From contig CAJFMW010000001.1 of assembly GCA_904392525.1 (NCBI GenBank), positions 1 through 60,652 on the forward strand: a DNA stretch of 60,652 nt, read 5' to 3'. Origin of the DNA: an uncultured Eisenbergiella sp. (lineage in GTDB: Bacteria > Bacillota > Clostridia > Lachnospirales > Lachnospiraceae). The position numbers and the translations under genes are program-made. Below, one piece after another: positions 11,718 through 13,213 of this stretch; position 1 is the stretch's first letter; the number at the start of each line of letters is the position of its first letter. The notes under the pieces were generated by a model that was not told where the DNA came from, made no database searches, and saw only the letters and a program-made list of their open reading frames with translations.

Positions 11718-11805
11718 CGGACGACCTTATGCAGCAGTCAGATGGCCACATATCAGGTTCCAAAGCTTTGCGTCCCAGCATTTCTGCAGGTTTGCCTTTC
11801 AAAAT
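11713..11805 (-). ncRNA. c-di-GMP-I (GEMM-I) riboswitch upstream of the pel operon
   Basis: Minus strand TTGAAAGGCAAACCTGCAGAAATGCTGGGACGCAAAGCTTTGGAACCTGA...GGTCGTCCGGCCGC; conserved GGCAAACC / GAAA loop / GGGACGCAAAGC / GGTC core. Confidence 0.92.
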
Positions 11806-11860
11806 ATGTACTTATCTGCCAAACCATTCCGTTTTCGCAGAGTATCTTACTCTGCGAAAA
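11753..11860. repeat. Left 108-bp inverted repeat (IRL) of recombinase cassette
   Basis: Reverse complement matches 13067..13174 at 107/108 positions by manual alignment. Confidence 0.95.
11832..11860. other. Putative tyrosine-recombinase crossover site, left
   Basis: TTTTCGCAGAG-TATCTTA-CTCTGCGAAAA: 11-bp perfect arms around an asymmetric 7-nt centre. Confidence 0.65.
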
Positions 11861-11888
11861 GTTATTTATAAACCATTAATATAAAAAG

Positions 11889-11917
11889 ATTTTACAGTTC
11901 TCTTTCTGATTTGTCAA
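11889..11917 (-). promoter_or_regulatory. Consensus sigma-A-type promoter inside the invertible segment, directed toward pel
   Basis: Minus strand TTGACA-(17)-TAAAAT. Confidence 0.85.
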
Positions 11918-12065
11918 GTTTTCTCCTCGAAATGCCTTAAAAGAGCACGAACGGTAAATGATTTTAAGTCTATAACTACTAAGAAAAAGCTGGTTTCTGT
12001 TTTTACATCGATTTAGTTAACATCAATATTGTTGTAAAACATAAATTCAAACCAGGGAGCTAAAT

Positions 12066-13058
12066 ATGAAACCCAAAAAGGAAAGCACTTCGGAAAGCTT
12101 TTGTAAAGCAAGTGAACTATGGATGGAAAGCGTTGGACCCAGATTAAAAGAATCCAGTATTGTAAAATACAGGAATATCATTGACGTTCATCTGCTTCCT
12201 TATTTTAAGGAGATGGATATGTCAGATATTAACAGCACTGATATTCTGGCTTTTTGTAATTCGCTTCTTCAGCCCGACGAAAAGAATGAATCAGGACTGG
12301 CATCCAAAACAATATCAGATATTTTAACTGTATTGAAGTCCATCTACAGATTTATTTCTGAAAAAAACAGCTTTGAGAATGTAATCCGAGACTGGCCGTC
12401 TGTCGGTCAGACCCATCGTCCGCTTAGGATCTTAAGCTTGCCTGAACAACACAAATTAAGTCTATATCTGTATAAACATCTTACGCCATGCAATCTCGGA
12501 ATATTACTCTGTCTGTATACAGGAATACGGATTGGAAAAATCTGCGCTTTAAAATGGATGGATATTTCAGTTGAAGAAAAGATAATACAAATAAGGAAAA
12601 CAATGCAGAGGATTCAATGCCGCAACACGGAACCTCCAAAAACGACCATACTTATTTCATCTCCGAAAAGCAGCTGTTCCATTCGAAGTATACCCATTCC
12701 AGATGAACTTTCCTGTATGATTGTTAAATATCGGAAATCTGATGACAGCTTTTTTCTCACAGGAAAAGAAAATTATTTTATAGAGCCGAGAACCTTGCAG
12801 AACCGTTTTAAGGCCATTACAGCAGCATGCGGAATATCGGATGCAAACTTTCATTCACTTCGCCACACGTTTGCCACTCGCTGCGTGGAATTGGGATTTG
12901 ACCTAAAAAGCCTCAGTGAGATTCTGGGACATGCCAACGTCAATATAACACTGAACCGTTACGTTCATCCTTCCCTGGAACAGAAAAGAAGAAATATGAA
13001 TCTTCTTTCTGTATATTTGACCGCAGACAAACTGGCAGAAAGGGACGGTAATGGCTAA
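12066..13058 (+). CDS. Tyrosine recombinase/integrase (putative DNA invertase)
   Basis: Catalytic motifs TGIRIGK, HSLRHTFATR, LGHANVNITLNRYVH; AGGGAG SD upstream; encoded wholly between the inverted repeats. Confidence 0.93.
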   Translation: MKPKKESTSESFCKASELWMESVGPRLKESSIVKYRNIIDVHLLPYFKEMDMSDINSTDILAFCNSLLQPDEKNESGLASKTISDILTVLKSIYRFISEKNSFENVIRDWPSVGQTHRPLRILSLPEQHKLSLYLYKHLTPCNLGILLCLYTGIRIGKICALKWMDISVEEKIIQIRKTMQRIQCRNTEPPKTTILISSPKSSCSIRSIPIPDELSCMIVKYRKSDDSFFLTGKENYFIEPRTLQNRFKAITAACGISDANFHSLRHTFATRCVELGFDLKSLSEILGHANVNITLNRYVHPSLEQKRRNMNLLSVYLTADKLAERDGNG

Positions 13059-13066
13059 GTTGTTTG

Positions 13067-13095
13067 TTTTCGCAGAGTAAGATACTCTGCGAAAA
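13067..13095. other. Putative tyrosine-recombinase crossover site, right
   Basis: TTTTCGCAGAG-TAAGATA-CTCTGCGAAAA; spacer is the reverse complement of the left site's. Confidence 0.65.
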
Positions 13096-13174
13096 CGGAA
13101 TGGTTTGGCAGATAAGTACATATTTTGAAAGGCAAACCTGCAGAAATGCAGGGACGCAAAGCTTTGGAACCTGA
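13067..13174. repeat. Right 108-bp inverted repeat (IRR) of recombinase cassette
   Basis: See 11753..11860. Confidence 0.95.
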
Positions 13175-13213
13175 GATGCATTTGTAGCGGAATGTATATG
13201 GTCGTCCGGCTGC
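13127..13213 (+). ncRNA. c-di-GMP-I (GEMM-I) riboswitch upstream of the glycosyltransferase operon
   Basis: GAAAGGCAAACCTGCAGAAATGCAGGGACGCAAAGCTTTGGAACCTGA...ATGGTCGTCCGGCTGC. Confidence 0.92.

Follow-up and report, generated by a model that had tools for sequence, protein, structure and literature searches.

A putative phase-variation switch joining an invertible promoter to two c-di-GMP riboswitches between polysaccharide operons of an uncultured Eisenbergiella species

Results

The window, by which we mean the whole stretch of 60,652 nucleotides analysed here (GenBank assembly GCA_904392525.1, contig CAJFMW010000001.1, from an uncultured Eisenbergiella sp. of the Lachnospiraceae), carries two divergent polysaccharide operons with an integrase gene between them. 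The left one is a Pel exopolysaccharide operon on the minus strand (108-11613), encoding an epimerase-like plus DUF4118 (PelD-like) protein, a PelE-like protein, two DUF2194 (PelA-like) proteins, PelF, PelG and CotH. PelF (NF038011, 356.6 bits) and PelG (PF16933, 436.8 bits) were assigned by family matches, as was DUF2194 in two proteins; the DUF4118 and epimerase matches in the PelD-like protein were below cut-off, and the PelE-like protein, which has no family match, was named by its position. The right one is a second, Pss-type polysaccharide operon on the plus strand (13327-18126), which encodes PssD, PssE, a GT1, a GT2, an O-FucT-like protein and one further protein, and which is followed by EAL, GGDEF and kinase genes. 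Its GT1 gene (~14312-15300, plus strand) changes frame at two places and is either a pseudogene or the product of a sequencing error; the right operon may be decaying or mis-assembled. Elsewhere in the window, a 6S (SsrS) RNA was found at 51848-52033 of the plus strand (62.1 bits).

The gene between the operons (12066-13058, plus strand) encodes a tyrosine recombinase, or integrase, of 330 aa (PF14659 and PF00589), whose nearest solved sequences, by sequence match, are 6en0 and its relatives, named 'Int protein'. It is flanked by inverted arms at 11749-11860 and 13067-13178 that are identical at 110 of 112 positions and that consist, from the inner to the outer end, of a 29-nt palindrome, a linker of ~33 nt and the 5′ half of an aptamer. 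The 29-bp palindromes are the candidate recombination sites, to which no strand is assigned: TTTTCGCAGAG-TATCTTA-CTCTGCGAAAA at 11832-11860, the inner end of the left arm, and, inverted relative to it, TTTTCGCAGAG-TAAGATA-CTCTGCGAAAA at 13067-13095. Their asymmetric spacers, TATCTTA on the left and TAAGATA on the right, match in inverted orientation. The nearly identical outer arms, likewise without strand, hold the linker and the 5′ half of the Pel-side aptamer (11749-11831) or of the EPS-side aptamer (13096-13178). No third copy of the palindromic site was found elsewhere in the assembly sequence searched, even at three mismatches. One shuffle of each of 44 related loci gave no inverted pair with a score above 15, whereas the pair at this locus scores 107, and a chance origin of the inverted pair is excluded. 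The palindromes were rejected as ordinary terminators on the basis of the sequence and a terminator scan, there being no T run in the outward direction.

Within the segment, on the strand opposite to the integrase, lies the outward promoter motif TTGACA-N17-TAAAAT (11889-11917, minus strand; 11 of 12 matches), which now faces the Pel leader and whose -10 element ends 28 nt inside the left site. The motif is conserved before Pel, in the same promoter and leader order, in the orthologous loci G005 and G010. Because the density of matches in the promoter scan as a whole was no higher than in shuffled sequences, the case for this promoter rests on its position and conservation; judged by its motif and conserved position, it is predicted to be a strong one. 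A weak candidate promoter for the integrase, TTTACA-N17-AATATT (12002-12030, plus strand; 9 of 12 matches), is within the number expected by chance, and the scan found no strong promoter from the stop codon of the integrase gene to the right aptamer. Inverted sites with matching spacers, a tyrosine integrase between them and an outward promoter motif inside the segment, the features of an inverton, are all present at this locus.

Two c-di-GMP-I aptamers flank the segment, and a cmscan search with Rfam RF01051, for which the gathering score is 35 bits, gave 59.0 bits for the EPS-side aptamer (13121-13217, plus strand) and 48.2 bits for the Pel-side aptamer (11806-11709, minus strand). No RF01051 match beyond these two was found in the assembly sequence searched. 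A preliminary description of this DNA had proposed two real, diverged c-di-GMP-I aptamers and suggested a covariance-model search as a check; both RNAs scored above the Rfam cut-off, in support of that proposal. The covariance-model alignment places a GAAA-capped P2, the GGGACGCAAAG core and the closing of P3 in both aptamers. The 5′ halves had been described as identical, which holds for 107 of the 108 nucleotides of the span considered but not strictly, as P2 of the left (Pel-side) aptamer contains one U.U mismatch where the right (EPS-side) aptamer has U-A. The further claim that the P3 strands beyond the arm differ while both pair was borne out: the distal strands are alike in 10 of 26 columns, each copy folds, and the 3′ core then returns as GGTCGTCCGGC(C/T)GCAATCA, alike at 18 of 19 positions. 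The word 'compensatory' used for this change is loose, since the distal helices are two different sequences, each pairing with itself, and not a case of column-by-column covariation.

Each aptamer is followed by an intrinsic terminator, at 11690-11718 (minus strand) in the Pel leader and at 13208-13241 (plus strand) in the EPS leader, the 5′ arms of which (GGCC... and GGCU..., respectively) take up the 3′ strand of the aptamer P3. In all of the Pel leaders compared, as in the EPS leader, the terminator starts with the GGCC or GGCU that forms this strand, and the terminators of both window leaders and of the G005 and G010 Pel leaders have predicted energies of -17 to -21 kcal/mol. The overlap between terminator and P3 couples the expression platform to the aptamer in both leaders of the window. 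Because the terminator 5′ arm overlaps the P3 3′ strand, ligand binding should favour read-through, and from this structure both riboswitches are predicted to respond to c-di-GMP and to be ON when its level is high.

The two orthologous loci are arranged differently. In G005 the Pel operon, with its riboswitch and the same promoter, directly adjoins the EAL/GGDEF/kinase cluster; a single recombination site with one mismatch is present, and both the integrase and the second operon are absent. G010 possesses an integrase 72% identical to that of the window, together with the Pel riboswitch and promoter, and on its far side a weak aptamer (35.9 bits) leads into an EPS locus that differs from the one in the window and encodes an EAL and a Wzy-like protein. 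The site next to Pel in G010 is degenerate, the well-matched inverted pair being formed by 106834-106858 and a site near 107942, and the two G010 aptamers have diverged (33 of 46 positions alike in the 5′ half). These differences indicate that members of the genus differ both in the partner operon and in the state of the switch. In the first gene of the G010 EPS locus (L059, 9054-10616, minus strand), a MotA/ExbB-like region is fused to an EAL domain.

The divergence of the leaders is unevenly distributed. Between the two arms of the window, 33 of 33 positions are alike in the linker and 46 of 47 in the aptamer 5′ half, as against 10 of 26 in distal P3, whereas the window Pel leader shares 12 of 33 linker positions and 18 of 26 distal P3 positions with its counterpart in G005, the one informative orthologue and therefore a small sample. 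From these values the linker follows the locus while the 3′ part follows the species, a pattern that would be expected if an exchange or a partial duplication had ended inside P3. The most plausible reason why the outer arms are nearly identical is either recent homogenisation, by conversion or exchange outward from the site, or a recent partial duplication. Alignment of orthologous loci had been put forward in the preliminary description as a way to look for conversion, and the linker values are consistent with a 5′ part that has been recombined or converted. Both chimeras can fold, because the break does not cut through distal P3 and because the basal strands of P3 are conserved in the two aptamers.

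The cassette was compared with 44 loci from the genus and from the Lachnospiraceae at large that encode related integrases, mostly at 34-51% identity. Inverted TTTCGYARA...TYTRCGAAA sites, typically of ~22-33 nt, flank ~29 of the 44, with inverted-pair scores of 18-33 against at most 15 in the shuffled controls (one shuffle per locus). The arms of many relatives are likewise ~22-33 bp long and contain no aptamer, and among these cassettes only the 112-nt arms of the window reach far past the site with near identity. Among 28 cassettes, an outward TTGACA-N17-TATAAT-like promoter with at least 10 of 12 matches is present in 21; it lies within the segment, on the 5′ side of the integrase, at a distance of 26-80 nt from the site. 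Four cassettes adjoin homologous TnpB/Cas12f-like genes, with the promoter side toward the gene in L041 and away from it in L074, L076 and L080. Such opposite orientations beside a homologous gene are comparative evidence suggesting that cassettes of this kind flip; the locus studied here was seen in one orientation only, and all three Pel leaders compared have the promoter toward Pel. The nuclease-like genes themselves (L041, 2925-3890; L074, 2548-3900, PF07282; L076, 22-1350; L080, 2536-3081; all homologues) resemble RNA-guided nucleases and, lying beside invertons in either promoter orientation, are possibly phase-variable.

Other neighbours of such cassettes were also noted. In another genus (G304), an inverton at 7535-9478 of locus L101 contains an integrase, a promoter and a complete c-di-GMP-I riboswitch (75 bits); it adjoins a gene for an FctA/SpaA-type adhesin, from which the promoter and riboswitch inside it currently face away. 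In L037, L038, L043, L045 and L079, proteins resembling capsule-type PHP phosphatases, so named by sequence resemblance only (a H-SHILP..DDGAES-like start), are encoded past the 3′ side of the integrase, away from the promoter, which suggests capsule operons in the OFF state. Rfam scans gave no match in the distant integrase relatives L048-L058 or in 20 further loci, and in another 20 integrase-relative loci they gave one tRNA alone and no riboswitch, so that integrases of this family are not generally paired with a riboswitch. When 397 genomes of the bacterial family were searched for the pattern of a site plus an aptamer, this locus was the only convincing match; matches in G351 and G323 look like chance, the G351 flank having no palindromic site. 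Among the RF01051 matches listed for the bacterial family, there was no second case of two divergent riboswitches lying close together on either side of an integrase, and a divergent pair in G160 was dropped because its riboswitches are 6.5 kb apart with other genes between them.

Discussion

The arrangement of these features makes it likely that the locus is a phase-variation switch, in which a promoter flipped by the integrase chooses between the Pel and the Pss-type operon while c-di-GMP gates each of them. We infer that the integrase encoded at 12066-13058 acts on the sites at 11832-11860 and 13067-13095 and inverts the segment that they enclose. In the sequenced orientation, transcription from the promoter would run to the left, across the Pel-side riboswitch and on into the Pel operon, and the right riboswitch, with no strong promoter of its own, would receive at most read-through from the integrase gene. 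In the inverted state, the same promoter at the same spacing would serve the right riboswitch and the Pss-type operon, and the Pel operon would lose access to it. A flip would change which leader and operon receive the internal promoter and not the aptamer halves. In either state, c-di-GMP would stabilise the aptamer P3 and prevent formation of the overlapping terminator, allowing the chosen operon to be read. The overall logic would be a DNA switch that selects one operon or the other, with c-di-GMP acting as a gate at the level of RNA, and the cell probably makes one exopolysaccharide or the other according to the orientation of the segment, and only when c-di-GMP is high. Read-through from the integrase into the second operon could blur this either/or behaviour.

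The preliminary description had seen the locus differently, with homologous recombination in the 112-bp arms as the mechanism, the aptamer 5′ half as its homology module and half-aptamers swapped at each event. The arms, identical at 110 of 112 positions and ending inside P3, and the unconstrained linker, at 33/33 between arms and 12/33 to the orthologue, speak for this reading, which we nevertheless consider unlikely. Relatives of the cassette appear to invert with sites of ~22-33 bp and aptamer-free arms; the aptamers of G010 have diverged despite the close relationship of its integrase; and 112 bp is short for efficient general recombination. The role of the aptamer as a recombination module is not upheld, as the inversion site is the 29-bp palindrome that is common to relatives with aptamer-free arms, and neither is the swap of half-aptamers, since the aptamers lie outside the invertible segment and a site-specific flip would leave their halves unexchanged. 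Such swapping would require a further event in the outer arm, either homologous exchange or branch migration.

It is very unlikely that the segment is instead a plain insertion, an integrase-bearing mobile element between divergent riboswitch operons whose inverted sites are immobile remnants of attachment sites. G005, in which the Pel operon and the c-di-GMP enzyme cluster adjoin and one site and the promoter are present without integrase or second operon, speaks for this reading; yet integration leaves direct and not inverted repeats, inverted sites with matching spacers and an outward promoter recur in many genera, and cassettes in both orientations were found beside homologous genes. Still less can be said for a recent duplication of the Pel leader that gave the right operon its riboswitch, the two leaders being independent and the inverted repeat having no role in switching. 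A common origin of the two aptamers is suggested by the unusual positions that they share (GGTCGTCCGGC) and by an extra T (AAAGCTTTGG), all absent in G005 and G010. However, the lack of a detectable strong promoter in the stretch from the integrase stop to the right aptamer argues against an independent right leader, duplication should have been followed by even divergence and not by a linker at 33/33 beside a distal P3 at 10/26, and the integrase and palindromes would be left unexplained. An integrase-flipped promoter serving two riboswitch leaders is the reading that we prefer.

Invertible promoters and c-di-GMP riboswitches are each known, and both are known in one leader in C. difficile, the organism to which most of the papers retrieved on riboswitches together with invertons or invertible promoters relate. 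In Salmonella Hin and similar systems, the recombinase lies inside the segment and flips with the promoter, as in the window cassette, whereas Hin is a serine recombinase, one side alone directly controls a target operon, and there is no riboswitch. The C. difficile cmr switch, upstream of cmrRST, resembles the window locus in combining an invertible promoter with a c-di-GMP riboswitch whose ligand-bound form increases expression; it differs in that the riboswitch is of class II, has its own promoter upstream of the inverton and acts independently of it, and in that there is one target operon and the recombinase, RecV, acts from elsewhere (PMC8844915). The C. difficile flgB leader shares with the window locus a class I c-di-GMP riboswitch, a segment inverted site-specifically and a tyrosine recombinase, but its riboswitch is an OFF switch that precedes a 154-bp inverton acting after transcription start, and it has one operon, RecV in trans and arms of 21 bp (PMC5386303). 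The leader type seen in C. difficile, with a riboswitch upstream of the inverton and one target, is not matched here, where the riboswitches lie outside and downstream, one on each side. Inverton group 139 of Clostridia, linked to tyrosine recombinase group 35 and seen to flip in sequencing reads, is similar by description in that short inverted repeats adjoin a tyrosine recombinase/integrase; the paper, a metagenomic survey, mentions no riboswitch (PMC11892184). The Pel operon of the window has the layout and gene set of the clostridial form of the Gram-positive pelDEADAFG locus, with its PelD-type protein with an epimerase-like N terminus and its CotH, and adds an upstream riboswitch and invertible promoter, in a context for which the published description mentions no riboswitch (PMC7112168). 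In open-access full text, where absence is not proof, we came upon no account of a self-contained cassette by which a single promoter is given to one or the other of two polysaccharide operons under c-di-GMP riboswitches.

The homogenised arms raise the possibility, which we regard as doubtful, that inversion and riboswitches evolve as one unit, in that strand exchange can spread at each flip from the recombination site across the linker and into the aptamer. If this were true, the leader and the 5′ half of the aptamer would be kept identical for both operons, whereas the 3′ half and the terminator would remain specific to each, and the two riboswitches would have in common a front half that is copied again and again. 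The locus offers a means of testing whether recombination sites homogenise a neighbouring regulatory RNA, as well as a clean test of how a heritable switch in DNA and a reversible one in RNA are combined. If the proposed switch operates, it would explain how two matrix polysaccharides could exclude each other in a species of Lachnospiraceae although the same second messenger serves both.
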